From NCBI GenBank assembly GCA_021496505.1, contig CP053031.1, positions 1,914,001-1,978,000 of the forward strand: a stretch of 64,000 bases of DNA. The letters run 5' to 3'. The position numbers and the translations under genes were made by a program. The notes under the pieces are model-generated. The model did no database searches. It saw only the letters and a list, made by a program, of their open reading frames with translations, and was not told the origin of the DNA. Positions 15,238 to 30,077 of the stretch are shown piece by piece; the first letter of the stretch is position 1; the number at the start of each line of letters is the position of its first letter. Origin of the DNA: Thermoleophilia bacterium SCSIO 60948 (lineage in GTDB: Bacteria; Actinomycetota; Thermoleophilia; Solirubrobacterales; 70-9).

Positions 15238-16341
15238 TCAGAGCCGCTCAGCAAGCCAGTCAGCCACCAGCGGCCGGTACCGATACGCCACGTTGTTACA
15301 CACGTGGTTGCCCTCGTCGTAGACAACGAACTCGCCGTTCGGAGCGGCGTCGGCGATGCGCTTGGTCTGCTCCCAGGGGATCAAGCGGTCGAGCTTGCCG
15401 GCGATGATGAGGAGGGGCTGCTCGATCTGGTCGGCGACCCCGTCTAGGCCGAGCTCCAGCGCCGCCTCGCGACCGGCCTCCTGGTCGGCTGAGCGCGAGT
15501 AGTAGGTGAAGGAGTCGCGGGTGAGGCCCGGGATGTGGTCCCAGATCTCACCGAAGTTCCAGGGGCCGCAGACGCCGGCCGCTGCCTTGATGCGCGGCTC
15601 GAACGCGGCGGTGCGGGGGGCGTAGTAGCCGCCGAGACTGACGCCGGCGACGCCGACCCGGTCGAGGTCGACGCTCGCACGCGAGCCCTCGTACTCCCCG
15701 GCGGACAGCGACGGCACCGGCTCTCCCCCGCTTCGCTCGAGCTCGTCGAGCAGCGCTCCGACCGCGACCTCGTAGTCGTGGCGCAGCGGAAGCTCGAACC
15801 CGCCCTCGCCCTGGCCGGGACCGTCGAGCGACGCGACCGCCAGCCCGCGGTCGAGGAAAACGTTCTCGAGCGAGAAGAACTCCTCCTTGGTCGAGTCGAG
15901 GCCCGGGATCAGGATCACGAGCGGGACGGCGCCCTCGCCACGCGGTCGCCGCAGGTTGGCGACGACCCGCGAGCCCTCGAGCGGCGCCTCGATGCGCTCC
16001 GCTGCTGGGTCGAGCAACCGGTGCCCATCGCGCTGTGCGTCGCGCGCCCGCAGCGTCACCTCGGTGTTGCGCTCGCCGTCGAGCACCCAGACGTACTTGG
16101 CGAAGTGGAACGCGACGGCTGCGCGGATGAACGCCTCGCCGGCGGTCCGCAGACGGCCCGCCTCCTCCGCCTCTCGTGCCAGACCGAGGTGCATCTCCCC
16201 CAGCTCGCACCAGGCGTCGATCCACTCCTCCCAGCGCTCGACCTTCGCGGTCGTGCGGTTGAAGTCGCCGAGATCGACGCCATTCGTGACCATGCGCGGC
16301 GCCCAGTTGTCGATCGCCGCCTGCACCCTCGCGTCAGGCAT
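15238..16341 (-). CDS. Alpha/beta hydrolase, 2,6-dihydroxypseudooxynicotine-hydrolase-like
   Basis: A 367-residue hydrolase with an N-terminal helical cap (residues 1-120) and a core with the triad Ser236 (GVSLGG), Asp318 (GKLDRL) and His346 (EGNHVC). The oxyanion-region motif PGLDSTKEEFF (147-157) and the cap resemble 2,6-dihydroxypseudooxynicotine hydrolase, which splits a C-C bond next to a ketone. The actual substrate is unknown. ATG 16341 overlaps the amidohydrolase stop (TGATG). It is the last gene of a leftward run with the amidohydrolase, desaturase-like oxidoreductase, EamA permease and liv transporter genes. Confidence 0.82.
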   Translation of the reverse strand: MPDARVQAAIDNWAPRMVTNGVDLGDFNRTTAKVERWEEWIDAWCELGEMHLGLAREAEEAGRLRTAGEAFIRAAVAFHFAKYVWVLDGERNTEVTLRARDAQRDGHRLLDPAAERIEAPLEGSRVVANLRRPRGEGAVPLVILIPGLDSTKEEFFSLENVFLDRGLAVASLDGPGQGEGGFELPLRHDYEVAVGALLDELERSGGEPVPSLSAGEYEGSRASVDLDRVGVAGVSLGGYYAPRTAAFEPRIKAAAGVCGPWNFGEIWDHIPGLTRDSFTYYSRSADQEAGREAALELGLDGVADQIEQPLLIIAGKLDRLIPWEQTKRIADAAPNGEFVVYDEGNHVCNNVAYRYRPLVADWLAERL

Positions 16342-17345
16342 CAGTCCTCCTCTCCGCCGATCCCCCAGAAGATCCGCTCGGCGTTGCCGGCGAGCACGGC
16401 AGCCTCCGCGAGGTCGCCGAGCCCGGCCGCTCGCACCGTCGCGATCGGGTCCTGGTCGCCCATGTCGAAAGGCCAGTCCGATCCGAGCAGCACGCGCTCG
16501 GGTCCGGCCCACTCGACGATCTGGGCGAGCAGTGCCGGGTCGTGCGTGATCGTGTCGAGATGGAAGCGCCGGATCGACTCGGACGGCGCCTCGGTGAGCC
16601 GCGATCGCGCCTGCGGCTGGAAGCCGTGCGCGTGGTCGAGCCGTCCGCGGAGCGCGGGCAGAACGCCGCCGGCGTGGGCGAGGATCACGGTGAGCTCGGG
16701 GTGGCGCTCCATCACCCCGGCCATCGTCATGTGGGCCGCGGCGATCGTCGTCTCGAGCGGGTTGCCGACCGTGTTCCACGAGTAGAAGTCGTCGAACGCC
16801 GGGTCGGGGAGACTGCGGGTCGCCGGGTGGATGAAGACGACCGAGCCGCTCGCCTCGGCCTCGGCCCAGAAGATCTCGCGGCTCTCGTCGCCGAGCGGCG
16901 TGCCGCCGATCCCCGCCGTGATCTCGACCCCGGCCAGCCCAGCCGCGCGGACCCCGCCGAGTTCCGCCGCGGCGAGCTCCGGGTCGCCCATCGGGACGGC
17001 GCCGAGGCCGGCGATCCGCTCGGGGTAACGGTCGACGATCCGCGCCAGCCCCGCGTTGCCGATCCGGCAGCGCTCGAGCGCGAGCTCCGGCTCGGTCGAC
17101 GCGTAGAGCAGCGGCACCCAAGGACACAGCACGACGCGCTCGATCCCGCGCTCGTGCTGAGCCGCGAGGATCGCATCGACATCGACCGCCTCGCCGATCA
17201 TCGCCCGGATCGACTTGCCCTCGAGCTCGACGACCTGGGCGCCGTCGGCGTCTCGCGTCACGCTCGCCCGCCAGCTCTCGTCCCCACCGTCGCCACGAAG
17301 CAGCTCGGGGACGATGACGTGCGCGTGGCAGTCGACCGGACCCAT
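16341..17345 (-). CDS. Amidohydrolase, ACMSD-like decarboxylase family
   Basis: A 334-residue amidohydrolase-2 (TIM-barrel) protein. Metal-binding His7 and His9 are in DCHAHV, further ligand positions lie in VFIHPATRS and TVILAHAGG, and the conserved Asp is in LLGSDWPFD. Family members include 2-amino-3-carboxymuconate-6-semialdehyde decarboxylase and gamma-resorcylate decarboxylase, which remove carboxylates from cyclic or semialdehyde compounds. ATG 17345 overlaps the upstream oxidoreductase stop (TGATG), and the stop overlaps the next start, so the three enzymes are translationally coupled. A decarboxylase acting before the C-C hydrolase is inference. Confidence 0.85.
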   Translation of the reverse strand: MGPVDCHAHVIVPELLRGDGGDESWRASVTRDADGAQVVELEGKSIRAMIGEAVDVDAILAAQHERGIERVVLCPWVPLLYASTEPELALERCRIGNAGLARIVDRYPERIAGLGAVPMGDPELAAAELGGVRAAGLAGVEITAGIGGTPLGDESREIFWAEAEASGSVVFIHPATRSLPDPAFDDFYSWNTVGNPLETTIAAAHMTMAGVMERHPELTVILAHAGGVLPALRGRLDHAHGFQPQARSRLTEAPSESIRRFHLDTITHDPALLAQIVEWAGPERVLLGSDWPFDMGDQDPIATVRAAGLGDLAEAAVLAGNAERIFWGIGGEED

Positions 17346-18937
17346 CAGCCCTCGCCCCCCGCGACCGCGTCGAAGTCGAGGCCGAGGTCCTCGAAGACGA
17401 TCCGCGCGGCGTTCCGCCCCGGCGCGCCGGTGATCGAGCCGCCTGGGTGCGTCGTTCCACCCGTCTGGTAGAGCCCGGCAAGCGGCGTTCTGTGTTGGCC
17501 CCAGCCGGGCGCCGGCTGGAGCGGGCCGGCCTGGGGCAGCGAGCGGATTCCGCCGTGCATCGCGCCGTCGATCATGTGCGGGTTCTGGGCCTCGATGTCC
17601 GGCGGCGCCTGGACCAACGAGGCGAGGATCGCGTCGTCGGTCAGACCCGGCACGTACTCGCGGACGCGCTCGAGCTGCCGCGCGGCGAACTCGTCCTTGG
17701 CGTCCTGCCAGGACGCGGAGCCCGGCGGCGGGGTCGCGGTCGCGCAGGTCAGCAGCTTCACGGTGTGGTGTCCCTCCGGCGCCCGCGAGGGGTCGGCGAG
17801 CGTCGGGCAGGCGACGAGCAGCCACGCCGGCTCGGGGTCGTGGATCCCGTCGCGCATCCGCCGGCCGTAGTCGAGCACCTGCTGCGGGAACCCGGCGAGG
17901 CCGGAGGAGACCGAGCTCCGGGGCCCGCCCGGCGTCTCGTAGATCGGCGGCGCGCTCGTCGCGTGGTGGACGGCGAACCCGGACAGCCCGATGTCGTAGG
18001 TCTCGATCCCCCAGCGCCAGTCCTCGGGCCAGACCTCGGCCGGCGCCATGTCGATCAGGTGCTTGACGTGGATCGTCGAGACGACCGCGCGATCGCCGAC
18101 GAACCGCTCGCCGCCCTCGACCTCGAAGCCGAGACAGCGCTCGCCCGAGTCGTCGAGCACGAGCCGCTCGACCTTGCGATCCGTCAGCACCTCTCCCCCG
18201 CTCGCCTCGATCGTCCGAACCAGCGAAGCCGCCAGCTCGCCCGACCCACCGCGCGGCAGCGTCCAACCTCGCCCCTGGCGCCCGAAGACGATCGAGTAGG
18301 CGAGCGGCCCCGTCCCCGCGACGTCGACGGGGACGTAGGTCTGGAACGCCTGCCAGAGGAAGAACGCCCGGACGTGCTCCGACTCATACGTGTCGCGGAT
18401 GACCTCCCAGGCCGACAGCATCCGCCGGCGCTCCCAGCGGTGCCCGTCGGGGTGCTCGGCGAGCATCTCCGACATCGACGGGCCGTAGCCGACCGGGTTG
18501 AAGCGGGCGGCCGAGAAGACCTGCTTGACGCGGTCGTACTCCTCGAGCGCTTTCCGGTAGGCCGCTGCATCGCGCCTCGAGAATCGCGCCAGCTCCTCGC
18601 AGCTGCGCTCGAGGTCGAGCCACATCGTCAGCTGCTCGCCGTCGGGGAAGACGACGTGGGCGAACGGGTCCGGGCTCAGGTAGTCGAGCCCCTGCTCGCC
18701 GATCAGGCCGAGCTCGTCGCGGGTCAGCAGCGGGTTCGTCTGGATCAGCGTGTGGCCGGTCGAGCACGAGTCGAGCAGGAACCCGGGTTGGAGCAGCTCC
18801 TCGGACGCCGCGCCGCCGCCGGCGACCGAGCGCGCGTCGACGACGATCACCGAGAGTCCGGCCCGGGCCAGGTAGGCGGCGGTGATCAGGCTGTTGTGGC
18901 CGGCCCCCGCGACGACGACGTCTGCGACTCGCTCCAC
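17345..18937 (-). CDS. Phytoene-desaturase-like FAD oxidoreductase
   Basis: A 530-residue flavoprotein of the COG1233/CrtI type: the N-terminal FAD motif VVVAGAGHNSLITAAYLA is followed by the redox family's GGGAASEELL loop, and the C-terminal YQTGGTTHPGGSITGAPGRNAA closes the FAD site. It lacks context for carotenoid synthesis; here it sits with an amidohydrolase, a C-C hydrolase and an ABC importer, so oxidation of an imported compound is likelier. GTG 18937 is preferred over GTG 18940 because GGAGG lies five bases before it. It starts 10 bases after the EamA stop. Confidence 0.84.
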   Translation of the reverse strand: MERVADVVVAGAGHNSLITAAYLARAGLSVIVVDARSVAGGGAASEELLQPGFLLDSCSTGHTLIQTNPLLTRDELGLIGEQGLDYLSPDPFAHVVFPDGEQLTMWLDLERSCEELARFSRRDAAAYRKALEEYDRVKQVFSAARFNPVGYGPSMSEMLAEHPDGHRWERRRMLSAWEVIRDTYESEHVRAFFLWQAFQTYVPVDVAGTGPLAYSIVFGRQGRGWTLPRGGSGELAASLVRTIEASGGEVLTDRKVERLVLDDSGERCLGFEVEGGERFVGDRAVVSTIHVKHLIDMAPAEVWPEDWRWGIETYDIGLSGFAVHHATSAPPIYETPGGPRSSVSSGLAGFPQQVLDYGRRMRDGIHDPEPAWLLVACPTLADPSRAPEGHHTVKLLTCATATPPPGSASWQDAKDEFAARQLERVREYVPGLTDDAILASLVQAPPDIEAQNPHMIDGAMHGGIRSLPQAGPLQPAPGWGQHRTPLAGLYQTGGTTHPGGSITGAPGRNAARIVFEDLGLDFDAVAGGEG

Positions 18938-18947
18938 CACGACCTCC

Positions 18948-19823
18948 CTACGCCAGCAACAGGATCAGCGACCCGCCGACGACGAGCGCGGCGCCGCCGA
19001 CGATCCGCGGGTTGACGATCTCCACAGAGCGCCCCGAGATCATCGGCGCGAGCGCGAGGACGACCGGGACCGAGAGCAGCTGCAGCGCCAGCACGGTCGC
19101 GATCGCGGTCGTGTCGAGCGACTCGTAGCGGCCCCATGTGGCGAGGCCGACGATCAGGCCCGCCGCCAGCTTCCAGTAGAGACCCGAACGCTCGTTGCCG
19201 ATCGAGCCGAGCTGCTCGTTGCTCAGCGCCAGCACGAATGCGTAGCCGAGAGTGGCGGCGGCCATCCCGAGCGTCACGCCGAGCAGCGGCGCGTCGAAGT
19301 GCTCGAGCGCCTCGGCCGTGATCACGGCGCTCGTCGCCCAACAGGCCGCGGTGGCGAAGCCCCAGACCGACTCGGAGAACGCGGCGCGCTCGCCGGACCC
19401 CGGGTCGCTGACCGCGAACGCGCCGACGATCACGAGCGCGACGCCGAGCGCCGCGATCGGCGCCGGGATCTCACCCGCGAAGACGATCCCGAGGACGAGC
19501 CCGAACAGCGGCGTCGTCGCGATCAGCGGGCTCGTCCGCGCGGCACCGATCCGCGACTGCGAGAAGTTGAGCGTCGTCCAGCCGACGAAGAAGTGCACCA
19601 TCCCCGCGGCGGCGAACAGCGCGTAGGCGTCGAGCGGCACCGCGCCGAGATCGCCGAGCTCGCCTGCAACCGCCGCCGCGAGCCCGAGAACCAGGGTCGC
19701 GAGGACGAGCTGGAGGAAGGTCGAGAGATAGACGCTCGAGAGGTTGCGGACCGCGCGGGCGTTGAAGGCCTGGAAGAGGCCGAAGCCGGCGCCCGAGACC
19801 GCGGCCCAGGCGGCGCCGCTCAC
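18948..19823 (-). CDS. EamA/DMT-family membrane transporter
   Basis: A 291-residue protein of ten hydrophobic helices in two EamA repeats (repeat 1 about 1-140, repeat 2 about 150-290), the drug/metabolite transporter architecture. The start is GTG 19823, overlapping the livF stop by four bases, so it is coupled to the ABC importer. It may export a by-product or toxic intermediate of the pathway; the direction and substrate are unknown. Confidence 0.82.
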
Positions 19824-20653
19824 ACCTTCGCTGCCGCCGTCGTGGCCTCCGGGCTCTTCGTCGGCGTGCCGCCGAAGAAGAGGTCCGTCATCTCCGGGTT
19901 GCTGAGCACGGCGTCCGCCCTGTCGGCGAGCAGGACGCGCCCCGACTCCATGACGACGCCGTGGGTCGACATCCGCAGCCCGAAGCGGACGTTCTGCTCG
20001 ATCATCAGCAGCGTCTTGCCGGCGGCCTGCATCCGCTGGATCGCCTGCGCGACGAGCTTCAGCGCCTTCGGGTCGAGACCGACCGAAGGCTCGTCGAGCA
20101 TCACCATCGCCGGGTCGAGCATCAGCGAGCGCGCGAACTCGACCGAGCGCCGCTGGCCGCCGGAGAGGTTGCCGGCCTTGTCGTGGGCGCGCTCGGCGAC
20201 GATCGGGAAGAGCTCGCAGACGTTCTCGTAGCGCTCCTCGATGAGCTTCTTCTTGCGGCGGATGATGTAGGCGCCCATCAAGACGTTGTCGCGCACGGTC
20301 AGGTTGGGAAACAGCGCGTCGGACTGAGGCACCTGGCTGATGCCCCTGCCGAGGATCGAAGCCGCCGACTCGCCCTCGATCCGCTCGCCGCGGTAGGTGA
20401 TCGTGCCCTCGCGCGGGTTGAGCAACCCGCTGACGGCGCGGAGCACCGTCGACTTGCCGGCGCCGTTCGGGCCGACGATGCACGTGGTCGAGCCCCCGGC
20501 GACGGACAGATCGACGCCCTGGAGGACGTCGCCGGCGCCGTAGCCGGCGTAGACGCCCTCGATTCGCAGCATCTCCTCCGAGGCCGATGCCCCGGCCGCC
20601 GTCGCGGGTGCCCCCGAGTCGGCCGAACCGCCGCTGCCGTTCATCGAGCTCAT
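19820..20653 (-). CDS. livF: Branched-chain-amino-acid-type ABC transporter ATPase
   Basis: A 277-residue LivF-type ATPase. Walker A is GPNGAGKS, the signature is [13 protein letters not shown], and Walker B is AMVMLDEPS, followed by GLDPKAL. Its first 28 residues are a Gly/Ser/Ala-rich extension before the domain. ATG 20653 overlaps the LivM-LivG stop (ATGA). With the fused LivM-LivG, LivH and the binding lipoprotein it makes a complete importer whose substrate, given the setting, need not be an amino acid. Confidence 0.95.
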
Positions 20654-22461
20654 ACTCCCACCGGCTCCTCGAGCTTGAAGTCGTCGCCGAGATACGCGTC
20701 GAGCACCTTCGGGTCGCGCTGGATCTCATCCGAGTTGCCCTCGCAGATGCAGGCGCCCTGGGCGAGCACGACGATCGGCTCGCACAGCGAGAGCACGAGC
20801 GGCATGTTGTGCTCGACGATCAGGAACGTCTTGCCCTGGGCGTTGAGCTCGCGGATCATGTCGGCCATCCGGTTGATCAGCGTCGGGTTGATCCCGCCCG
20901 CGGGCTCGTCGAGCAGGATCAGCTTCGGGTCGAGCATCAACACCTGCGCGAGCTCGACGAGCTTTCGCTGCCCGAACGACAGCGCCTCGGCCGGCCGGTC
21001 GCGGTACTCCGACATCCCCACGAACTCGAGCAGCTCGTCGGCGCGCCTGGACTCCTCGCCGGAGACCGCACCGGCTCGGAGCTGGCCGAACGAGAAGCTC
21101 CGAAGCGGCGCGACGACGTTCTCGAGCACGGTCATGTCGCGGAACACGCGCGTGATCTGGAACGTCCGCCCGAGCCCGGCGTAGGCGCGCGACCAGGCCT
21201 TCTTGCCGTCGATCCGCTCGCCGTCGAGCCAGACCTTGCCGGCATCGGCCGACATCGTTCCGCCGATCAGGTTGAACGTCGTCGTCTTGCCCGAGCCGTT
21301 CGGGCCGATCAATCCCGTGATCGTGCCCTCCTCGACCTCGAACGAGCAGCCGTTCACCGCCTGGACGCCGCCGAAGCTCTTCTGCAGGCCCTCGACGACG
21401 AGCAGCTTCTTGCCGCTCGCCGCTCGCTTCGTGACCGGCGCGATCTCGAGCTTTCGCTCGCCGAGCCGGGCGCCGACGAGCGCCCTGCGGTTGCGCCCCG
21501 CCGCGCGCTCGAGCAGCTTGCGCACCGACGGGACGATGCCGTCGGGCAGCAGCAGGATCGTCAGCGCGAGAAGCCCGCCGAAGATCAGCAGCCGCGAGTT
21601 GCCGCCGCCGAACTCCTGGTTTGCGAACTCGTTCAGCGACTCGATCAGGAACGCGCCGAGCACCGGGCCGAACAGCGTCCCGCGACCGCCGAGGATCACC
21701 GCGAGGACGATCTGGACGCTGATCACGATGTCGAACGTCCCCAGCGGGTCGATGAACGCGAGGTAGTAGCCGTAGACGCCGCCGGCCATGCCGAGGAAGA
21801 CGGCGCTGGCGACGAAGGCGATGATCTTGTAGACGGGCGTGTTGATCCCGATCGTCGCCGCCTTGTCCTCGTCCTCGCGGATCGCGAGCAGGCCGGTCCC
21901 GATCTTCGTCCGCCGGATCCACCACGACAGCGCGACGGAGGCGATCAGCAGCCCGGCGAGCGTGTAATAGAACGGCCAGTTCTGGAACTCGATCGGCCAC
22001 ATCGGCAGCGGCAGCGTGATGCCGCTCGATCCGCCGGTGAGCTCGCGCAGGTTGATCGCCGCGATCTGGAGGATGAACAGGCCGGCGATCGTGATGATCA
22101 CGAACGCGAAGCCGCGGGTTCGCATCGCGATCAGCCCCAGCAGCGCGGCGAACAGCGCCGCGACGACACCGGCGACGGGGACCCAGATGAACGGGTCGCC
22201 GCCGATCTTGGTGGTCATGATCCCGACCGTGTAGGCGCCGAGTCCGATGAACGCCGACTGGCCCAGCGAGATGTAGCCGCCGAACCCCATGATCACGTTG
22301 AGCCCGACCGCGCCGATCGCGAAGACGAGCGAGAGGATGATCATGTTCTGGTAGAAGAGATCGTCCGAGAGCAGCGGGAAGACGAGCAGCAGGCCGAACG
22401 CCACCGTCACGACCGCGCGCCACAGGTTCGGCTTCAGGGCGAAGTTCGCCGCGGAGCTCAT
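20650..22461 (-). CDS. LivM-LivG fusion: ABC permease plus ATPase in one chain
   Basis: A 603-residue natural fusion. Residues 1-320 are a LivM-type permease with about nine helices and the cytoplasmic EAA-like loop ([15 protein letters not shown]). Residues 355-600 are a LivG ATPase with Walker A GPNGSGKT, signature [12 protein letters not shown] and Walker [12 protein letters not shown] basic linker of about 35 residues joins them. Each part is of normal family length, so this is fusion rather than truncation. ATG 22461 overlaps the livH stop (ATGA). Confidence 0.94.
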
Positions 22462-23339
22462 ACCGCCACGTCCTCACGTAGCCGGGTGCCCATCAGCCCC
22501 TGCGGGCGGAAGAACAGGACGAGGAAGATCACGACGTAGGGCACCGCCGTCGCCCAGGCCGTCGAGATGTAGGTCTGCGTGTAGACCTCGGCCAGGCCGA
22601 GGATCAGCGCTCCTATGACCGCCCCCTGGAGGCTCCCGAGCCCACCGAGGACGATGATCGAGAGCACCCGCGCGATCCAGATGTAGTGCGAGCCGGGCAG
22701 GAACGGATAGAGCACCGAGACCATCGACCCGGCGGCGCCGACGGTCGCGACCCCGACCGCGAAGGTGAGCGCGCTGACCCCGGCGATGTTGACACCGACG
22801 AGCGAGGCGCCCTGGGCGTTGGTCGACGATGCGCGGATCGCGCGGCCGGTCCAGGTCCGGCTGAGGAACATCCACAGCGCGACGAGCACGACGATCGCGA
22901 TCGCGCAGGCGAACACCTGCGCCTTCGGCAGCGTGATCCCGAGCAGGTCGTAGGACTGGTTGAAGTAGGACGGGCGGGCCGAGTTCGAGTTGTTGCCCCA
23001 GACGAGGCCCATGATCGCCTCGAAGACGAGCGCGAGCCCGAAGGTCAGGAGCACCGTCGAGGAGAGCGGCGCGTCTCGCAGCGGGCGCACCGTGCCGACG
23101 TAGATCACGCCGCCGAGCACGAACATCAGCGGGGTGACGATCAGGATCGAGAGCAGCGGGTCGATCCCGAACTGATCCCAGAGGGTGAAGGCGATGAACG
23201 CGCCGAGGATCAGCAGCGCGCCGTGGGCGATGTTGATCACCTTCATGACGCCGAAGATCAGCGTCAGCCCCGATGCGAACAGCGCGTAGACGCCACCGAT
23301 CAGGAGCCCGAAGGCAGTCGCTTGGATGAACTCTTCCAT
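22458..23339 (-). CDS. livH: Branched-chain-amino-acid-type ABC transporter permease LivH
   Basis: A 293-residue LivH permease with about eight helices (opening FIQATAFGLLIGGVYALFASGLTLIFG) and the conserved loop AIRASSTNAQGASLVGVN that docks to the ATPase. It lies 134 bases downstream of the binding-protein gene, with a strong hairpin in the gap, and is coupled by ATGA overlap to the LivM-LivG gene. Confidence 0.95.
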   Translation of the reverse strand: MEEFIQATAFGLLIGGVYALFASGLTLIFGVMKVINIAHGALLILGAFIAFTLWDQFGIDPLLSILIVTPLMFVLGGVIYVGTVRPLRDAPLSSTVLLTFGLALVFEAIMGLVWGNNSNSARPSYFNQSYDLLGITLPKAQVFACAIAIVVLVALWMFLSRTWTGRAIRASSTNAQGASLVGVNIAGVSALTFAVGVATVGAAGSMVSVLYPFLPGSHYIWIARVLSIIVLGGLGSLQGAVIGALILGLAEVYTQTYISTAWATAVPYVVIFLVLFFRPQGLMGTRLREDVAV

Positions 23340-23473: not shown

Positions 23474-24730
23474 CTACTCGTCGTTGGGCATCGCCTGTCC
23501 GTCGATGATCACCTCGTCCGAGGTCGCGGCATCCGGCGGCAGGACGATCTCGGCCTGGCCGTCCTGCCACTGGCCGATCAGGAACTCGCCGATCGGAGCA
23601 CCCGAGTCCTCCCACTGGAGCGGCCCGAGGATCGTCTCGACCTCGTTCTCGCGCAGCCAGTCGGCGAGCGCGAGCTGATCGTCGATCGAACCGACCCCCT
23701 CCACGGCGGCCTGCAGGACCTGGCCGGCGGCGTAGGCGTCGGCGGCGTCCTCCGGCGGCTCCTCGCCGTTGAACTTGTCCTTGTAGGCCTGGACGAACTC
23801 CTCGTTGCCGGGCGTCGAGGCGTCGGGCACGTGGCTGATCGCGAAGAACACCTCTTCCGTGTTCTCCTCGCCGATGCCGTCCGAGTACTGCTCGCCGAAC
23901 GACGGCGCGTTCGTCTGGAAGAAGATCGGCGGGTCGTATCCGACCTTCTCGAGCGAGCGGCTGAAGCCGATCCCGTCGTCGAACTGCGAGCCGTTGATCA
24001 GCATGTCGGGCGAGTCCTGGGTCGCCTCGCTCGCGATCGTGTCGAAGTTCGACGTCGAGATCGGATAGATCTCGTCGTAGACGGTCTCGATGCCGGCCGC
24101 CTCGAACTTCTCCTTCAGCGCATCGACGACCGGCACCGTGAACGGGTCGTCGAGCGTCGCGTAGGCGACGGTCTTCGGCTGCTGGTCCTCGGGCAGGTTG
24201 AGGATGTACTCCGCGAACAGGTCGCCCTGCTTGTCGGCCGTCGCCTGCTGGGTGAAGAACGGCCCGTACTGGAAGTCGCGGGCGAAGATCTCCGGGGCGC
24301 CACCGGCGGGCTCGATGTAGAGCATCCGGTTGCGCTCGGCCGCCGCCGAGGCCGGCAGGTTGAGCAGCGACGAGAAGGTCCCGAGCAGCAGATCGACCTG
24401 ATCGCGCTGGATCAGGGCGTTGTAGTCGGCGACCACGGTGTTCTGGTCGGAGGCGTCGTCCTTGACGATCAGCTCGACGTCCTGATCGAGCAGGCCGCCG
24501 TTCTCGTTGATCATGTCGACCCAGACCTCGTAGCCCTGCTGCGCGGCCTTGCCGGGCTGCGAGAACTCGCCGGTCAGCGGCAGCGAGGCGCCGATCGTGA
24601 TCGTGCCGTCTCCGTCGTCTCCACCACCACCGCTATCGCTGCCGCAACCGATCGCGAACACGATCGCCGCAAGCAGCAGTCCGAGCGCGGCGAAACTCCG
24701 CTTCGCGCCGGATCGCAAGCTGCTCCCCAT
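23474..24730 (-). CDS. livK: Branched-chain-amino-acid-type ABC substrate-binding lipoprotein
   Basis: A 418-residue type I periplasmic binding protein with a lipoprotein signal (AAIVFAIGCGSDSGGG; Cys near residue 28) and a Gly/Asp-rich tether. The domain opens TITIGASLPLTGEFSQPG and contains VELIVKDDASD and AYATLDDPFTVPVVDAL, typical of the LivJ/LivK and aromatic-compound-binding clades. ATG 24730 follows GGGAGAGAGAGGG; further upstream codons fall in the operator. It is the first gene of the importer operon under the promoter and operators at 24837-24892. Confidence 0.93.
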   Translation of the reverse strand: MGSSLRSGAKRSFAALGLLLAAIVFAIGCGSDSGGGGDDGDGTITIGASLPLTGEFSQPGKAAQQGYEVWVDMINENGGLLDQDVELIVKDDASDQNTVVADYNALIQRDQVDLLLGTFSSLLNLPASAAAERNRMLYIEPAGGAPEIFARDFQYGPFFTQQATADKQGDLFAEYILNLPEDQQPKTVAYATLDDPFTVPVVDALKEKFEAAGIETVYDEIYPISTSNFDTIASEATQDSPDMLINGSQFDDGIGFSRSLEKVGYDPPIFFQTNAPSFGEQYSDGIGEENTEEVFFAISHVPDASTPGNEEFVQAYKDKFNGEEPPEDAADAYAAGQVLQAAVEGVGSIDDQLALADWLRENEVETILGPLQWEDSGAPIGEFLIGQWQDGQAEIVLPPDAATSDEVIIDGQAMPNDE

Positions 24731-24836: not shown

Positions 24837-24850
24837 TGCAAACGATTGCT
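24837..24850. promoter_or_regulatory. LacI-type operator before livK
   Basis: TGCAAACGATTGCT, one mismatch from the palindrome at 28297-28310. It lies just downstream of the livK -10. Confidence 0.75.
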
Positions 24851-24863
24851 GCAATCGAGTGCA
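24850..24863. promoter_or_regulatory. Second, weaker LacI-type half-palindrome before livK
   Basis: TGCAATCGAGTGCA has TGCA ends and a central CG but a degraded right half. It abuts both the main operator and the -10, so it may be an auxiliary site. Confidence 0.45.
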
Positions 24864-24928: not shown

Positions 24929-25969
24929 TCAGGCGCGCGGGGGCGCCGTCGACTCGCGGATCACGAGCGAGGCCTCGAGCAGCTTCGACTCGAGCACGGC
25001 CTCGGGATCGTCGAGCTTGGCGAGGAGCAGATTCGCGGCCTCGGCCCCGAGCTCGTAGTGCGGGATCCGGATCGACGTCAGCGGCGGGCGGAAGTGCTCG
25101 ATGAACGGCATGTCGTTGAAGCCGACCACCGAGACGTCGCCGGGGCAGCTCATGCCGCGGCGCTCGAGCGCGTCGTAGCAGCCGAGCGCCACGAGGTCGT
25201 TGACCGCGATCACCGCGGTGAACTCGGGGCCGTCGGCGAGCAGGCGCTCGCAGGCCGCTGCGCCGTCGGACTCGACGAGCGCCGGCGTCTCGGCGATCAG
25301 CGCCGGATCGGCCTCGAGACCCTCGGCCGCGATCGCCTCGACGAAGGCCTCACGGCGCATCGCCGCGGTCGAGAGCTGCTCGGGGCCGGCGATGTGGGCG
25401 ATCCGCTCGTGGCCCAGCTCGCGCAGGTGCCGCACGGCGAGCGCGATCCCCTGGTGGTCGTCGCCGATCGCGAACGGGATCCGCTCGTCGGCGGTGCGCC
25501 GGTTGACGAGCACGACGGGCATCGACTCCGGCAGCCCGAGCGCCGCCGCGTCGAAGCGCGCGGTCGCCGAGAGGAACCCGTCGACCTGGCGGTTGACCAG
25601 CGCCCCGACGCTCATTCGCTCGCGCTCGGCGTCGTTGTCGGTGTTCGCGATCAGCGGCGTGTAGCCGGCCGCCTCGAGGCGGTCCTGGATGCCGCGGACG
25701 ATCGGCGGGAAGAGCGGGTTGTTGAGGTCGGGGATCATCACGCCGACGGTCCACGTCCGGCTCGTCTTGAGTCCTCGAGCCATCGGGTTCGGGAAGTAGC
25801 CGAGTCGCTCGGCGGCCGCGAGGACGCGGTCGGCGGTCTCCGTGTTGACCAGCGGGCGGGTCGCCTCGTTGAGCGCACGCGAGGCCGTGCCCGGGTGCAC
25901 GTCGGCCTCGCGAGCGACGTCGCGCAGGGTCACGCGCGAGCCGAGGGCCCCGGCGCCGCCCGCGCTCAT
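24929..25969 (-). CDS. LacI-family transcriptional regulator 2
   Basis: A 346-residue LacI-type repressor: helix-turn-helix TLRDVAREADVHPGTASRALN (residues 14-34), hinge YFPNPMARGLKTSRTW, then a sugar-binding-protein-like sensor domain. The recognition-helix specificity positions are Pro-Gly, unlike Val-Ser in regulator 1, so the two may prefer slightly different operators. ATG 25969 follows GAGGAGA; an in-frame GTG at 25987 would place the ribosome site inside the gene. It lies upstream of livK on the same strand and about 1.5-2.3 kb from the operators at 27459 and 28297, making it the likely regulator of those units. Confidence 0.92.
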   Translation of the reverse strand: MSAGGAGALGSRVTLRDVAREADVHPGTASRALNEATRPLVNTETADRVLAAAERLGYFPNPMARGLKTSRTWTVGVMIPDLNNPLFPPIVRGIQDRLEAAGYTPLIANTDNDAERERMSVGALVNRQVDGFLSATARFDAAALGLPESMPVVLVNRRTADERIPFAIGDDHQGIALAVRHLRELGHERIAHIAGPEQLSTAAMRREAFVEAIAAEGLEADPALIAETPALVESDGAAACERLLADGPEFTAVIAVNDLVALGCYDALERRGMSCPGDVSVVGFNDMPFIEHFRPPLTSIRIPHYELGAEAANLLLAKLDDPEAVLESKLLEASLVIRESTAPPRA

Positions 25970-26078
25970 GTCTCTCCTCGTTGACACGGCGTCATCGGCC
26001 GCCGCAGGCTAGGTCGTAGGCCCGCGAGCGTCAACCTGCGCCGAGCCCGCTGCGCGTCGCCACCGCCCTCGGCGCGGG

Positions 26079-26513
26079 CTACGCCGCGTCGCTCGGGTAG
26101 CCCTCCTCCGGGACCTGATAACCCGAGCTCTCGAGCGAGCCGGAGCCGCGCCAGCCCCAGATCAGCAGCGCGTCCTCCTCGCCCGTGTTGTCGAAGCCGT
26201 GCCAGTGGCCGGCCGGGGTGAAGACGACGTCGCCCGCCTTCGCGGGCTCGCGTCCCTCGTCGGTGTAGATGTCGCCGCTGCCGCTCATCACGAGCAGGAA
26301 CTCGTCGCATTCGGTGTGGAGGTGGCGGTCGTGGCGGGCGCCGGGCGGCATCACCGTGCGTCCGAAGACGAGCTGGTCGGAGCCCGTGTTCGCCTCGGAG
26401 AGCAGGAACTGGACCTGCATCTCGACCCAGCCCTCCTCCTCGGTCAGGCCCTCGACGAGCGGGACCTCGTGGACCCGGGTGCGGTAGGGCTCGAGCCCCT
26501 CACTGCCCGCCAT
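26079..26513 (-). CDS. Single-domain cupin
   Basis: A 144-residue cupin. Motif 1 reads PPGARHDRHLHTECDEFLLVMSGSG and motif 2 PAGHWHGFDNTG, giving His/His/Glu/His metal ligands. Such proteins are isomerases, lyases or dioxygenases, or simply bind a small ligand, so the reaction is not assigned. ATG 26513 overlaps the stop of the upstream dehydrogenase, so the two are co-expressed from the unit headed by the operator at 27459-27472. Confidence 0.85.
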   Translation of the reverse strand: MAGSEGLEPYRTRVHEVPLVEGLTEEEGWVEMQVQFLLSEANTGSDQLVFGRTVMPPGARHDRHLHTECDEFLLVMSGSGDIYTDEGREPAKAGDVVFTPAGHWHGFDNTGEEDALLIWGWRGSGSLESSGYQVPEEGYPSDAA

Positions 26514-27421
26514 CAGTCCGCCATCCCCGCGAGCTTTCGGTAGGCCTCGAAGGTGACGACGAAGTCCTTGTCGCCGATTCCGAGCCCGCGCGCCGCGTTC
26601 AGCATCTCGTTGGCCGCCGCGGTCACCGGCAGCGGGACGCCGCTCGTCCGGCCGAGGTCGAGCGCGAGCATCAGGTCCTTCTGCTGGAGGTCGACATCGG
26701 CCCAGGCGTCCTCGGGCATCCGCCCCTCGAGGATGAACGGGCCGCGGTAGCCGAGCACCGGGGAGGCGACGACGCTTCGCAGCATCGCGTTGACCGCTAC
26801 CTCGCGGTCGACGCCACCGCGCTCGGCGAGCGCGACGCCCTCGCAGAAGCCGATCACCTGGACGACGAGCGCGAGGTTGATCGCGAGCTTCGCCTGTAGA
26901 GCGAGGCTCTGTTCGCCGATCCGCGTGACCTTCGGGCCGATGTCGAGCAACACCGGCTCGAGCCGGTCGAACGCCTCCTGCGAGCCGCCGACCATCACCG
27001 CGAGGTTGCCCTGCTCGAGCGTCTCGACCGACCCCGACACCGGGGCGTCGAGCATCTCGGCGCCGCGCTCGGCGATCAGCGCCGCGAGCTCGGCGCTCTT
27101 GGCCGGCGCGATCGTCGACATGTCGGCGAACAGGCCGCCCGAACGGATTCCGGCCGCGACGCCGTCCCCCCCGGTCACGATCGCCTCGACGGCCTTGCCG
27201 TCGGTGACCATCGAGAAGACGATCTCGGCGCGCTCGGCGACCTCGCGCGGGCTGGCGGCCCGGACCATCCCGTCGGCCTCGACCCTCTCGGCCTTCGCGG
27301 GGTCACGGTTCCAGCCGACGACCTCATAGCCCGCGCCCATCAGACTGCGGACGACCGCGCTGCCCATCGAACCGAGGCCGATGAACCCGATGGTCCCCGG
27401 CTTCGCAGTCGACCCTGCCAT
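26513..27421 (-). CDS. 3-hydroxyisobutyrate-dehydrogenase-like NAD(P) oxidoreductase 2
   Basis: A 302-residue beta-hydroxyacid dehydrogenase: Rossmann motif GFIGLGSMG, substrate-side motif DAPVSGSVE and catalytic Lys in LQAKLAINLAL. It is diverged from the copy at 7838-8815, so the enzymes probably handle different hydroxy acids. ATG 27421 follows GGGAGGAG. It is the first gene of a two-gene unit with the cupin. Confidence 0.9.
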   Translation of the reverse strand: MAGSTAKPGTIGFIGLGSMGSAVVRSLMGAGYEVVGWNRDPAKAERVEADGMVRAASPREVAERAEIVFSMVTDGKAVEAIVTGGDGVAAGIRSGGLFADMSTIAPAKSAELAALIAERGAEMLDAPVSGSVETLEQGNLAVMVGGSQEAFDRLEPVLLDIGPKVTRIGEQSLALQAKLAINLALVVQVIGFCEGVALAERGGVDREVAVNAMLRSVVASPVLGYRGPFILEGRMPEDAWADVDLQQKDLMLALDLGRTSGVPLPVTAAANEMLNAARGLGIGDKDFVVTFEAYRKLAGMAD

Positions 27422-27458
27422 CCCGCTCCTCCCTGCCGGCCGCGCGACCACGCGCGAC

Positions 27459-27472
27459 TGCAAACGATTGCT
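27459..27472. promoter_or_regulatory. LacI-type operator before the dehydrogenase-cupin unit
   Basis: TGCAAACGATTGCT, identical to the site at 24837-24850, ending 38 bases before the dehydrogenase start. The promoter elements are less clear here than at the other sites. Confidence 0.75.
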
Positions 27473-27523
27473 GCCCTCCGCTGTGGTCAGAGTATCCGAC
27501 GGCGCAAGTGCGGCGAGCGACGC

Positions 27524-28201
27524 CTAGGAGGCGAAGCGGATCTCGGCGATGCCGGCACCCTCGAGCGCCAGGGCGTAGCTCTCGCCGGGGTTCGGGTCGC
27601 TCGGCGGGATGATCGACCCGCAGATCACGACGTCTCCCGCACCGAGCGTCTGGCCCTGCGCAGCGAGCGTTCCGGCGAGCGATCGCAGCAGCCCGATCGG
27701 CTCGCCCGTCGCGCCGTAGACATCGAGCTCCTGATCCTCGCCGTCGGCGCCGGTCAACCGCATCTGGGGGTCGTCGATCAGATCGGCCGGCCCCGCCGCA
27801 CCGAGCGCGAACCCGCGGTGGAAGATGTCGCCGGCGAGGATCCGCTCGACGCTGTCCTCGTCGGGGTCGAGGTCGGCGATCTCGAAGGCGGGGCCGACCG
27901 ATGCGATCGCGGCTCGCACCTCGTCGTCGGTCGCGTCCTGGGGCAGGTCGGAGCCCATGGTGATCGCGAGCTCCGGTTCGAGCTTCGGGTTCGAGAAGAC
28001 CGAGAGGTCGACCTCGGCCCCGCCGTCGATCCGCGTCGCCTCGGTCAGGTAGCCGACGAGGGGTTCGGAGATCGAGAGCTTCTCCATCGCGGCCGCGGTC
28101 CCGAAGCCGAGCTTCCAGCCGACCGGCGGGCGCTCGGCGCTCTCGCGCTCGCGCGTCGCCAGCTGGCTTTGCATCCCCTTGTCGATTCGCTCGTCAGCCA
28201 T
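27524..28201 (-). CDS. 2-oxopent-4-enoate-hydratase-like protein (fumarylacetoacetate hydrolase superfamily)
   Basis: A 225-residue protein resembling MhpD/2-oxo-4-pentenoate hydratase and 4-oxalocrotonate decarboxylase: GWKLGF near residue 30, PKLEPELAITMG (metal-binding Glu pair) near 80 and FEIADLD near 115 are the usual family landmarks. These enzymes act late in meta-cleavage pathways. ATG 28201 follows GGAGGAG. It is transcribed leftward from the divergent region holding the operator at 28295-28312. Its presence supports an oxo-enoate intermediate in the pathway, although no ring-cleavage dioxygenase is seen. Confidence 0.82.
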   Translation of the reverse strand: MADERIDKGMQSQLATRERESAERPPVGWKLGFGTAAAMEKLSISEPLVGYLTEATRIDGGAEVDLSVFSNPKLEPELAITMGSDLPQDATDDEVRAAIASVGPAFEIADLDPDEDSVERILAGDIFHRGFALGAAGPADLIDDPQMRLTGADGEDQELDVYGATGEPIGLLRSLAGTLAAQGQTLGAGDVVICGSIIPPSDPNPGESYALALEGAGIAEIRFAS

Positions 28202-28294
28202 CAGGTGCTCTCCTCCAGGTCGATCCCGCATCCCCGCCAGGTGGCATCCCTACCCGCAGGACTTGACCGCGCACTTATCCTTCGGCGGGGAGAT

Positions 28295-28312
28295 GCTGCA
28301 AACGATTGCAGC
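28295..28312. promoter_or_regulatory. LacI-type operator between hydratase and exported amidohydrolase
   Basis: The best palindrome of the set: GCTGCAA and TTGCAGC arms around ACGA. It lies 20 bases before the amidohydrolase start and 94 bases before the hydratase start and could control both divergent genes. Confidence 0.82.
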
Positions 28313-28331
28313 GCAACGGAGGAGAGTTTGC

Positions 28332-30077
28332 ATGGGACCCGACCGGCGGTCACTCGACGGCTTCCCACAGCGGCGCCGAGACGCCGCAGGCTTCGCTTTG
28401 GCCTGCATCGCGGCGCTCGGCGCGTCGATAGCCGGGACCGGCGTCGGCGCCTCGACGGCGGCCCCGGGCTCGGCCCCCGACGTCATCCTGCGAAACGGCG
28501 AGATCCTGACGATGGACGGGAAGCGCCCGCGCGCCCAGGCGATCGCGATCACCGACGAGCGGATCAGCGCGGTCGGCCGCGACGGCGCCGTGACGCGGAC
28601 CGCCGGCCTCCGCACCCGTGTCGTCAACCTCCGAGGCCGGACCGTCGTCCCCGGCCTGATCGACGGCCACACCCACGCGATCCGCGGTGGCCAGACCTAC
28701 GCCGACGAGACCTACTGGCTCGATGAGACCTCGCTCGCCTCAGCGCTCGACAAGATCGCCGACGAGGCCGCCGCGAAGGCGCCGGAGGAGTGGACCGCGG
28801 TGATCGGTGGCTGGCATCCGAACCAGTTCTCCGAGGGTGAGGCGCCGACCGTCGCCGACCTGACCGAGGCGGCGCCCGACCGGCCCGTCTACGTGCAGTA
28901 CCTCTACGACTACGCGCTCGTCAACGACGCCGGCATCGAGGCCCTCGGGCTGAACGAGTCCGAGACGCCGCCCGCGCCCGGGATCGTCGTCGAGCGCGAC
29001 GAGAACGGCGACGCGACCGGTCGACTGACCGGGGGTATCGGTCCCTTCAACACGCTCGTCGCGACCCTCCTCCCCGCCACACCGGAGGAGCGCAAGGACT
29101 CGCTCGAGAGCTACTTCGGCGAGCTCACCGAGCGCGGCGTGACCGGGTTCATCGACGACAGTGCCGGGCCGTCGAGCGCCTACGACGCGCTCTATGCGCT
29201 CGCCGACGAGGGCCGGCTGGACCTCCGCGCGGGCTACCGGATCCCGGCCCAGGCGCCGGGCAACGAGTCGGCGTTCTTCGAGCAGGTGATGGCCTTCCGG
29301 CCCCCGCGCCAGCCCGACGGAGAGATCCCGTTCGTCGGGATCGGCGAGTCGATCGTCTTCGGTGTCAACGACGGTGTCCGCTACTCGCCCGGCTTCCAGT
29401 CGACGCCGGAAGCCCGTCAGGAACTCCGCGAGGTCGCGACCTACGCCGCCCAGAAGCGGATTCCGCTCGAGATCCACGCCTACAACGACGACACCGCATC
29501 GCAGATCCTCGACGTCTTCGAGGAGGTCGACCAGACGTATCCGATCGGCGGCCTGCGATGGGCGATGGCGCACCTGAACACCGGCTCGCCCGAGACGATC
29601 GCGCGGATGCAGGCGCTCGGGATGGCGTTCTCGGTCCAGATGGGCCCGTACTTCGAGGCGCCGCAGATCAAGGATGGCTGGGGCGAGGAGATCGCGAGGC
29701 GCGCCGCCGTGCGCGAGGCGATCGACCAGGGCGTCCGGGTCGCCGGCGGCACCGACGCGACGCGAGTCGGCGACTTTCGGGTCTGGCCGGCGGTCGAGTT
29801 CCAGGTGACGGGCGCTTCCGCGGGCAACGCCGTCGTCCGTCCTCCCGATCAGCGGCTCAGCCGGATGGAGGCGCTGCGCGCCTACACCCAGGGCTCGGCC
29901 TGGCTCGCGTTCGACAACGACGACCGCGGCACGCTGCGCCCCGGCAAGTTCGCCGACATCGCCGTGCTCGACAAGCCCTACATGGACGTACCGAAGAACG
30001 AGATCGGCGACCTGCGCTCGGTGCTGACAATGCGAGGCGGCGAGCCGGTCTACGACAAGCGCGGTCTGCTCGACTGA
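28332..30077 (+). CDS. Exported YtcJ-like metal-dependent amidohydrolase
   Basis: A 581-residue amidohydrolase-3 protein. After a basic start with the twin-arginine-like string QRRRDAAGF there is a hydrophobic stretch (ALACIAALGASIAGTG), suggesting export, possibly by Tat. The catalytic barrel starts with the metal pair in GLIDGHTHAIRGG and has later ligands in LEIHAYND, MAHLNTG and GTDATR. Relatives hydrolyse formamides, ureas or cyclic amides. ATG 28332 follows GGAGGAG. It would act outside the membrane, before uptake by the Liv-type importer, which is inference. Confidence 0.84.
   Translation: MGPDRRSLDGFPQRRRDAAGFALACIAALGASIAGTGVGASTAAPGSAPDVILRNGEILTMDGKRPRAQAIAITDERISAVGRDGAVTRTAGLRTRVVNLRGRTVVPGLIDGHTHAIRGGQTYADETYWLDETSLASALDKIADEAAAKAPEEWTAVIGGWHPNQFSEGEAPTVADLTEAAPDRPVYVQYLYDYALVNDAGIEALGLNESETPPAPGIVVERDENGDATGRLTGGIGPFNTLVATLLPATPEERKDSLESYFGELTERGVTGFIDDSAGPSSAYDALYALADEGRLDLRAGYRIPAQAPGNESAFFEQVMAFRPPRQPDGEIPFVGIGESIVFGVNDGVRYSPGFQSTPEARQELREVATYAAQKRIPLEIHAYNDDTASQILDVFEEVDQTYPIGGLRWAMAHLNTGSPETIARMQALGMAFSVQMGPYFEAPQIKDGWGEEIARRAAVREAIDQGVRVAGGTDATRVGDFRVWPAVEFQVTGASAGNAVVRPPDQRLSRMEALRAYTQGSAWLAFDNDDRGTLRPGKFADIAVLDKPYMDVPKNEIGDLRSVLTMRGGEPVYDKRGLLD

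Follow-up and report, generated by a model that had tools for sequence, protein, structure and literature searches.

A LacI-type regulon with a pseudooxynicotine-hydrolase-like enzyme in a Thermoleophilia bacterium, possibly for the breakdown of a nitrogen-containing ring compound

What kind of compound is broken down by a gene cluster that encodes a C-C hydrolase of the pseudooxynicotine type and no recognised ring-cleaving dioxygenase? The question is raised by a stretch of 64,000 nucleotides of the soil-type actinobacterium Thermoleophilia bacterium SCSIO 60948 (CP053031.1, positions 1,914,001 to 1,978,000), here called the window, in which an original prediction placed an uptake and degradation pathway at 15238-30077. 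All the proteins named there are indeed encoded, as indicated by GC3 pattern and by Pfam, NCBIfam and PDB sequence matches. The boundaries need to be redrawn, since the regulon spans from about 1160 to 30077 and half of it lies to the left of 15238. The leftward genes encode a CMD-family protein and an MFS transporter, two M24 proteins of the creatinase fold, a second beta-hydroxyacid dehydrogenase, two aldehyde dehydrogenases, E1 alpha and beta subunits and a second LacI-family regulator.

A sequence search found a predicted LacI-type operator, TGCAAACGATTGC, ahead of every unit. Exact copies, all given on the plus strand, lie in the promoter region from which the HIBADH1 and M24a genes diverge (8865..8877, with a weaker copy at 8945), ahead of livK (24837..24849, followed by a weaker repeat at 24850-24862), 38 bp upstream of the start of HIBADH2 (27459..27471) and where the hydratase-like and amidohydrolase genes diverge from their promoter region (28297..28309); a copy with one mismatch precedes the CMD gene (3097..3109, plus strand). 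Allowing at most one mismatch, five of the six sites in the whole 3.42-Mb genome fall inside the window. Allowing two, the window holds 12 hits (near-palindromes being scored on both strands) against 0.43 expected, a number reached by none of 100 shuffles. Two LacI-family regulators are encoded on the minus strand (regulator 1, 24929..25987, NCBIfam and Pfam; regulator 2, 3145..4185, 40% identical to the first), so that a LacI-family gene accompanies a putative common palindromic operator at all units. In relatives, 26 sites with at most one mismatch were found in 12 LacI-type loci (219 kb), whereas four loci from two genomes (70 kb) with a GntR/FCD-type regulator instead had none; nine comparison regions (165 kb) had three, two of them in a single M24a/LacI locus, L105. 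The operator at each unit, the concentration of its sites in the window and its recurrence in relatives bear out the single regulon proposed for this region.

Next to each other on the minus strand are the genes for three enzymes and an importer. The C-C hydrolase (15238..16341; Pfam, PDB match, family alignment) is an alpha/beta hydrolase whose top solved match is 2,6-dihydroxypseudooxynicotine hydrolase (2jbw, E 2.9e-43). In an alignment that speaks at the family level, its Ser, Asp and His columns match the same residues of 2jbw, which we take to be the triad of that enzyme. It is about 33% identical to nicotine-plasmid hydrolases and, among PDB sequence matches, is also similar to AntI (E 1.4e-18). 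The ACMSD-like metal-dependent decarboxylase or hydrolase (16341..17345; Amidohydro_2, PF04909; Pfam, PDB match) has human ACMSD as top match (8.1e-38) and, aligned to 4ofc, keeps the columns of HxH, His, His and Asp, presumably the metal and catalytic residues; it also resembles resorcylate and 5-carboxyvanillate decarboxylases in PDB sequence matches. Tryptophan-pathway genes were not recognised in the regulon. The third enzyme is a CrtO/CrtI-like (phytoene-desaturase-like) FAD oxidoreductase (17345..18940; NCBIfam, Pfam, PDB match, 14-sequence alignment), for which the identity of carotenoid ketolase CrtO was rejected (220.7 bits against an NCBIfam cut-off of 1000).

The transport genes, likewise on the minus strand, encode an EamA-family membrane transporter (18948..19823; Pfam), a LivF-like ABC ATPase (19820..20653), a LivM-LivG fusion of permease and ATPase (20650..22461), a LivH-like permease (22458..23339) and a LivK-like lipoprotein binding protein (23474..24730; NCBIfam, Pfam), with a CynX/NimT-family MFS transporter at the far left (1160..2368; 44% match in relative G366). 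The Liv family imports non-nitrogenous compounds too, and this lack of restriction to nitrogenous cargo speaks against reading the substrate as an N heterocycle.

The third unit of the original region was given too much weight. It comprises a single-domain cupin (26079..26513, minus; Pfam), an FAH/oxo-enoate-hydratase-like protein (27524..28201, minus; weak NCBIfam and Pfam matches, with 22.1 bits against a Pfam cut-off of 23.9 and 54 bits for DmpH/DmpE, far under cut-off) and a predicted exported amidohydrolase (28332..30077, plus; PF07969, Amidohydro_3, YtcJ-like; NCBIfam, Pfam) with an N-terminal twin-arginine-like stretch noticed by eye. Each was found in one of 14 relatives, and they are peripheral, hardly conserved members of the regulon. 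The labels "hydratase" for the FAH-like protein and "decarboxylase" for the ACMSD-like protein were also too narrow, since family evidence does not separate lactonase or hydrolase roles. As had been stated, no ring-cleaving dioxygenase is present among the ten Pfam-scanned proteins of 15238-30077. The cupin, with a 3-His/1-Glu motif seen by eye that is presumably the known one of its family, could itself be a dioxygenase. Genome-wide, a profile search found no member of the intradiol family PF00775 and 29 VOC-domain hits, some paired in frames of about 332 aa, among which there could be extradiol enzymes.

The proposed lower module ends in a 2-oxoacid dehydrogenase. A CMD-family (carboxymuconolactone-decarboxylase, AhpD-like) protein (2393..3040, minus), with identities of 71%, 55% and 44% in relatives G207, G191 and G165, is accompanied on the same strand by a succinate-semialdehyde-dehydrogenase-like aldehyde dehydrogenase (4330..5808), the E1 beta (5805..6827) and E1 alpha (6824..7810) subunits of a TPP-dependent 2-oxoacid dehydrogenase and the beta-hydroxyacid dehydrogenase HIBADH1 (7838..8815). 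A BADH-like aldehyde dehydrogenase (10398..11915, plus) and HIBADH2 (26513..27421, minus; HIBADH/GarR family; NCBIfam, Pfam) complete the set. Both HIBADH proteins match at the family level only, the tartronate semialdehyde reductase and HIBADH equivalogs being rejected (202.9 against 397 for HIBADH2, 170.3 against 340.75 for HIBADH1).

The regulon also encodes two M24-fold proteins, M24a (9003..10385, plus) and M24b (12397..13650, plus). In M24a the column of the second Asp of the M24 site carries an invariant Cys-Tyr-Tyr (CYYR in 34 of 34 aligned rows). At the columns of the metal ligands of prolidase 1pv9, which we assumed as reference, M24b has Glu, Gln, Gly, Gln and Gly, and its Glu235, Gln246 and Gln343 are invariant in nine of nine rows. 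An M24 metallopeptidase (prolidase/aminopeptidase P) identity was rejected for both, as the dinuclear Asp-Asp-His-Glu-Glu site is absent. Because the site is altered in every aligned member, the M24a family, labelled Xaa-Pro peptidase, is unlikely to be a peptidase. It is common to roseobacter and Streptomyces plasmids and adjoins 2-oxoacid dehydrogenase genes in actinobacteria and roseobacters and, as distant homologues, in haloarchaea.

The DMSP lyase DddP is the closest NCBIfam model of M24a and has the same fold (Z 34.6), but the score of 121.6 bits falls below the cut-off of 600 and two of six ligand columns are lost, so that this identity was rejected. These are Asp297 and Asp307, unkept in our alignment and listed among the six metal ligands of DddP in the excerpted text of PMC4108388. 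For M24b the best structural match is the ectoine hydrolase DoeA (Z 35.9, rmsd 2.5, 359 aligned), tied with prolidases. DoeA was rejected as well (62.5 and 57.8 bits for M24a, 35.3 and 29 for M24b, against cut-offs of 575 and 613). Ectoine catabolism (the DoeA/EutD module) does resemble our regulon in that an M24-fold hydrolase, an importer and a semialdehyde dehydrogenase belong to one catabolic regulon; it differs in that DoeA scores are far from reached and neither DoeB nor DoeD was noticed in the window. To our knowledge, a C-C hydrolase is never part of ectoine clusters.

The gene set recurs in other, distant families. Within one sample of 396 genomes, the C-C hydrolase was found in 11, ten of which also have M24a, a gene present in 31 of the full 396 (Fisher p = 2e-11). 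Among 14 relatives, M24a was found in 11, M24b and the Liv importer in nine each, and the ACMSD-like protein and a Mo-hydroxylase large subunit in eight each; the counts for the C-C hydrolase (13) and the CrtO-like protein (12) are partly built in, since relatives were picked by the presence of either gene. The cluster is absent at the CrtO loci L028 and L029, at the distant C-C hydrolase loci L034-L036 and in G342. In the sample seen, lineages carrying it are mostly metagenome assemblies.

The Mo-hydroxylase lies within the same loci in those eight relatives, and at L089 and L127 the operator adjoins its genes. Together with the operator and its recurrence, this supports the catabolic, heterocycle-like character originally suggested. 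A cyclic amide, the other option named there, is a candidate that the evidence neither favours nor speaks against. The active-site loop reads YRGAGR in all seven readable enzymes and not AYRCSF as in CO dehydrogenase (comparison loops from the excerpted text of PMC8305194). 6-hydroxypseudooxynicotine dehydrogenase is among the nearest solved structures. Three observations run against an N-heterocycle substrate: CO dehydrogenase outscores the latter enzyme (530 against 497 bits), the nearest NCBIfam model is glyceraldehyde dehydrogenase, under cut-off, and the window's own cluster has no Mo-hydroxylase, none being found in positions 1-33000. The source genome has three elsewhere, at most 42% identical to the relatives' enzymes and without the regulon operator.

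Computation supports the gene set, its common operator, the recurrence of that operator and the linkage between C-C hydrolase and M24a. As to function, we consider it about an even chance that the regulon is catabolic, repressed by LacI and directed at an N-containing ring compound, most likely N-heteroaromatic or alkaloid-like and bearing a side chain that is acyl or oxidisable. The pathway would be laid out like the nicotine pyridine pathway and yet be distinct from it. It is the Mo-hydroxylase, the flavoenzyme and the C-C hydrolase that recall the nicotine route of Arthrobacter/Paenarthrobacter nicotinovorans pAO1, with which the regulon putatively shares a pseudooxynicotine-hydrolase-type enzyme at the family level, a flavoprotein oxidoreductase, a succinate-semialdehyde-dehydrogenase-like enzyme and, in relatives, a Mo-hydroxylase of the same superfamily. 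Unlike that route, it has a CrtO/CrtI-like flavoenzyme, additional ACMSD-like and M24 enzymes and a LacI regulator, the NDH/KDH-type hydroxylase is missing from the window's cluster, and the C-C hydrolase is distant; nor was a 2,6-dihydroxypyridine 3-hydroxylase noticed among those regulon proteins that were scanned.

Such a pathway might begin with trimming of a precursor by the exported amidohydrolase and import through LivKHMGF. The CrtO-like flavoprotein would dehydrogenate the substrate and, in many relatives, the Mo-hydroxylase would hydroxylate the ring; the ACMSD-like enzyme may then remove a carboxyl group or hydrolyse a ring intermediate. The alpha/beta hydrolase could cleave a C-C bond adjacent to a ketone via a beta-diketone tautomer, after which the two M24 proteins, with their altered metal sites, may open the remaining ring by C-N hydrolysis. 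The beta-hydroxyacid and aldehyde dehydrogenases and the 2-oxoacid dehydrogenase would pass the fragments to central metabolism.

Nitrogen is strictly required by none of these steps, and the likeness of the hydrolase to AntI and of the ACMSD-like protein to resorcylate and 5-carboxyvanillate decarboxylases would suit an N-free aromatic or polyketide-like ketone of the acyl-resorcinol type, which the flavoenzyme would aromatise or desaturate, the ACMSD-like enzyme decarboxylate as a hydroxy-aromatic acid and the hydrolase cut as an aryl ketone, with the M24 proteins acting late. We regard this as unlikely, as no aromatic ring-cleavage gene was recognised within the regulon and sister loci carry genes for creatininase-family and PLP enzymes, nitrile-hydratase alpha, or RidA and an amidase. 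The nearest non-peptidase fold relatives of the M24 proteins, moreover, include the C-N-cleaving DoeA and creatinase, with DddP just as near to M24a.

A sugar, cyclitol or amino-acid-derivative pathway, in which the tartronate-semialdehyde-reductase-like and 2-oxoacid dehydrogenases, under LacI control, act on a polyhydroxylated ring, with the C-C hydrolase opening a cyclic beta-diketone, seems distinctly unlikely. The LacI regulators are nearest to RbsR models of NCBIfam, a MocA-type and a creatininase-family gene lie beside the C-C hydrolase in G207, and M24a accompanies a sugar-type ABC importer at L105 and such importers, SDRs and ThuA in roseobacters, an association that makes the lower module not specific to N heterocycles. 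Nevertheless, importers at C-C hydrolase loci are mostly of the Liv or NMT1/TauT type, and Mo-hydroxylases, ACMSD-like and CrtO-like enzymes are unusual in sugar routes. Two or three separate pathways under one LacI-family operator, with a lower module of general use (M24a, dehydrogenases, E1) next to upper modules that are unrelated and only answer the same signal, would fit the 21 of 31 M24a genomes that have no C-C hydrolase and the poorly conserved third unit. They are very unlikely given M24a in nearly all C-C hydrolase genomes and, in the fetched set, the restriction of M24a copies with 75% identity or more to such genomes.

Returning to the N-containing ring compound, we tentatively suggest, as a bolder and rather doubtful possibility, an undescribed pathway across several actinobacterial families that clears an N heterocycle and needs no ring-cleaving dioxygenase. 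The ring would be prepared by a flavoenzyme, joined in many lineages by a Mo-hydroxylase, and would lose its side chain to the pseudooxynicotine-hydrolase-like enzyme; its hydrolytic opening would fall to the two creatinase-fold proteins, whose metal sites are rebuilt or lost. In the one open library searched we found no matching known pathway, in line with the original prediction; the enzyme families are known and, as far as that library shows, their combination is new. If the suggestion is true, the M24a family would be a new and widespread class of catabolic enzymes mislabelled as Xaa-Pro peptidases. The gene set is defined, conserved and under joint control, and offers a starting point for substrate screening.

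The original prediction had placed an uptake and degradation pathway at 15238-30077, and frames with coding-type GC3 in this stretch encode every protein that it named. The stretch holds genes for a C-C hydrolase, an ACMSD-like amidohydrolase-2, a CrtO/CrtI-like flavoprotein, EamA, LivF, a LivM-LivG fusion, LivH, LivK, LacI, a cupin, a beta-hydroxyacid dehydrogenase (HIBADH2, 26513-27421, minus strand), a FAH/hydratase-like protein and, divergent from the remaining genes, an exported amidohydrolase. The genome is a single contig of 3.42 Mb, of which the window is G000:C1:1914001-1978000.

Exact copies of a 13-mer, TGCAAACGATTGC, were found at 8865, 24837, 27459 and 28297, and a copy with a single mismatch at 3097. 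Allowing two mismatches gave 12 matches, counting both strands of near-palindromes, against 0.43 expected from dinucleotide shuffles, and none of 100 shuffles reached 12. With at most one mismatch the whole genome has six sites, of which five fall in the window, within 25 kb of sequence; no plausible target was seen in the region of the sixth (558158). The sites lie upstream of livK, HIBADH2, the divergent hydratase-like/amidohydrolase pair, the divergent pair of HIBADH1 (7838-8815, minus strand) and the M24-fold protein M24a (9003-10385, plus strand), and the CMD gene. A predicted operator thus precedes each unit, which, with five of the six genomic sites in the window, bears out the proposal of a shared regulon. 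Since the left-hand units also have sites upstream, the regulon spans about 1160 to 30077, adding the CMD and MFS genes, a second LacI, aldehyde dehydrogenases 1 and 2, the E1 alpha and beta subunits of a 2-oxoacid dehydrogenase, HIBADH1 and two M24 proteins. The second M24 protein, M24b (12397-13650, plus strand), begins 480 bp after aldehyde dehydrogenase 2 and has no operator site of its own in the window; in relatives a site lies close by (loci L089 and L092).

A 466-aa protein (13647-15047) separates the left and right parts of the regulon; it has weaker coding bias, no Pfam or PADLOC match and a C-terminal half that by eye is nuclease-type-like. Farther along, 46614-53318 carries a complete type I restriction-modification set (HsdR, HsdS, HsdM) with a GC content of about 0.65 against 0.69-0.72, its HsdR of 1267 aa ending in an AlbA_2/Schlafen domain. 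A PDC-M50A-like protein and a ThsB/TIR-like (PDC-M50B) protein follow at 53222-54613, and 46614-54613 is likely an acquired defence island.

The predicted operator recurs in relatives. At up to one mismatch, 26 sites were counted in 12 LacI-type relative loci (219 kb) and none in four loci from two genomes that have a GntR/FCD-type regulator instead of LacI (70 kb). Nine comparison regions (165 kb) gave three sites, two of them in L105, an M24a/LacI locus. In a phylum sample of 396 genomes, 11 have the C-C hydrolase (E <= 1e-45) and 31 have M24a (E <= 1e-100). The two occur together in ten genomes, the window's own included, so that all but one of the hydrolase genomes also have M24a (Fisher p 2.0e-11). 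In a class sample of 199 genomes, hydrolase matches at E <= 1e-20 in 16 were mostly distant homologues.

We tabulated 14 relatives, that is, 11 genomes and the contigs L025 (a Thermoleophilaceae MAG), L026 (a Nocardiopsaceae MAG) and L027 (an actinobacterial MAG). Left out were L028 and L029, with only the CrtO-like gene of the C-C hydrolase/CrtO-like/ACMSD-like set, L034-L036, with distant C-C hydrolases accompanied only by weak ABC-ATPase matches, as well as G342 and M24a-only genomes. The C-C hydrolase occurs in 13 relatives and the CrtO-like gene in 12, counts inflated by the choice of relatives through matches to these two. M24a occurs in 11, M24b and LivM-G in nine each, the ACMSD-like gene and a Mo-hydroxylase large subunit in eight each, HIBADH2 in four, CMD in three, and the cupin, the FAH-like gene and the exported amidohydrolase in one each; several contigs stop within the cluster, which makes absences there weak. 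No C-C hydrolase, CrtO-like or ACMSD-like gene was found in six comparison regions and the rest of the window; the comparison regions include the M24a-only loci L104 and L106.

Among PDB entries the C-C hydrolase matches 2,6-dihydroxypseudooxynicotine hydrolase (2jbw, 2.9e-43) and, at 1.4e-18, AntI. In the alignment with 2jbw, its Ser, Asp and His fall on the residues that we take to be the catalytic triad, and Ser238, Asp321 and His349 are invariant in all 19 rows of the family alignment. The ACMSD-like protein retains its metal columns in the alignment. The CrtO-like protein reaches 220.7 bits with the CrtO model, below the cut-off of 1000, and by sequence is therefore a relative of CrtO rather than that enzyme.

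Operator sites adjoin Mo-hydroxylase genes in L089 and L127. The matches of the Mo hydroxylase of locus L096 include CO dehydrogenase at 530 bits, 6-hydroxypseudooxynicotine dehydrogenase at 497 and quinoline 2-oxidoreductase at 494. All seven readable cluster copies carry the active-site loop YRGAGR, a hydroxylase-like loop that differs from the AYRCSF given for CO dehydrogenase in the available part of the source (PMC8305194). Two of the three Mo hydroxylases of the window's genome share 27 to 42% identity with the relatives' cluster copies and the third gave no match; none has a regulon operator in the whole-genome search at up to one mismatch, and the idea that one of them is the cluster's missing enzyme is not supported. 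In L127 (2187-6520, genome G228), 2-oxoacid:ferredoxin-oxidoreductase-like subunits and a FAD protein were seen by eye near Mo-hydroxylase and E1 genes.

Both M24 proteins have the M24 fold, according to models with mean pLDDT of 80.1 and 81.6 and fold matches in the pdb_via library. M24a retains Asp259, His336, Glu369 and Glu384, but in all 34 rows of its alignment, among them a haloarchaeal sequence of 36% identity, Cys-Tyr-Tyr-Arg stands invariant in place of the second Asp. Its nearest NCBIfam model is DddP (121.6 bits; cut-off 600), an enzyme that binds two metals through six residues according to the available part of the source (PMC4108388); two of these six are lost in M24a. M24a matches prolidases, the ectoine hydrolase DoeA and DddP all alike (Z 34-36), so that the fold assigns no function. 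In M24b, the columns of what we take to be the prolidase ligands hold Glu, Gln, Gly, Gln and Gly; its top structural match is DoeA (Z 35.9, rmsd 2.5, 359 residues), with prolidases tied and creatinase close behind (Z 33.8). We infer that M24a and M24b are non-peptidase hydrolases of C-N bonds.

The order of steps that we infer would begin with import by Liv and dehydrogenation by the flavoprotein, the Mo hydroxylase of relatives also hydroxylating the ring. The ACMSD-like enzyme would remove or hydrolyse a carboxyl-bearing group, a C-C bond beside a ketone would then be cleaved, the M24 proteins would hydrolyse C-N, and the fragments would be oxidised through the beta-hydroxyacid, aldehyde and 2-oxoacid dehydrogenases. 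That there is no ring-cleaving dioxygenase, as the original prediction had it, applies to the cluster's annotated families and to these only, since the cupin, or a VOC protein not linked to the cluster, may act as one. The prediction's statement that no known pathway matches agrees with searches of open-licence papers, in which no pathway with this gene combination was found. Membership among ectoine, DMSP, nicotine or carotenoid genes was rejected, since the genes fall short of the curated cut-offs, do not keep the ligand columns or differ in what the cluster contains.

The amine oxidase of the nicotine pyridine pathway is a flavoprotein. This pathway comprises Mo hydroxylation, amine oxidation and side-chain removal by pseudooxynicotine hydrolase, as described in the available part of the source (PMC3891541). 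The same three types of opening chemistry would be used here, namely Mo hydroxylation (in relatives), flavin oxidation and side-chain removal by a C-C hydrolase. By analogy, the window's system is most likely similar to that pathway, but stands outside it, since the window's cluster lacks a Mo hydroxylase and has a flavoenzyme from a different family. A nitrogen-containing ring compound is our preferred substrate, at about even confidence. A nitrogen-free aryl ketone is possible, although rather unlikely; a cyclitol is also possible, with slightly lower probability. That several pathways share one operator is possible but the least probable, and a near-complete locus in the relative G207 supports treating the window's units as a single system. 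Its contig holds together, at 10-66 kb, M24a, E1, aldehyde dehydrogenase, CMD (71%), Liv and LacI genes, HIBADH1, M24b, ACMSD-like and CrtO-like genes, two C-C hydrolases, Mo-hydroxylase subunits, a creatininase-family gene, a PLP enzyme, a homologue of the exported amidohydrolase (37%), a TRZ/ATZ-type amidohydrolase, a two-domain cupin and an SDR.

Beyond the regulon for a putative nitrogen-containing ring compound, M24a (49 records at E <= 1e-30) is also found on plasmids of Rhodococcus, Streptomyces, Paenarthrobacter, Phaeobacter and Tritonibacter, and in haloarchaea at 32-35%. On roseobacter plasmids (L038, 13938-22321; L042, 13929-20940) it leads a series of genes that includes a 2-oxoacid dehydrogenase complex (E1 alpha, E1 beta, lipoyl protein and E2; L038 also has LpdA) together with a semialdehyde dehydrogenase, adjoined by a sugar-type ABC importer and ThuA; these genes form an uncharacterised catabolic module. 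Plasmids of a single strain, Paenarthrobacter sp. R1, carry two M24a copies (L040, 1-17030; L041, 12196-17228), one in a Liv/amidase/RidA/cupin cluster and the other a few genes from SulR, a sulfonamide-resistance flavin reductase. We judged the sulfonamide link incidental, because the other copy has its Liv/amidase/RidA setting without sulR.

Of seven M24a regions that we read, five have M24a near several of the following: beta-hydroxyacid dehydrogenase, E1 alpha/beta or an E1 fusion, E2 and a succinate-semialdehyde-type dehydrogenase. The second Paenarthrobacter copy has these neighbours only in part, and the Rhodococcus opacus region has none of them nearby. The upper genes vary among regions, being a sugar-type ABC importer with SDRs, Liv with amidase and RidA, or an LLM flavin oxidoreductase with a flavin reductase and a second ABC importer. 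We read this distribution as a single lower module that serves several upper pathways.
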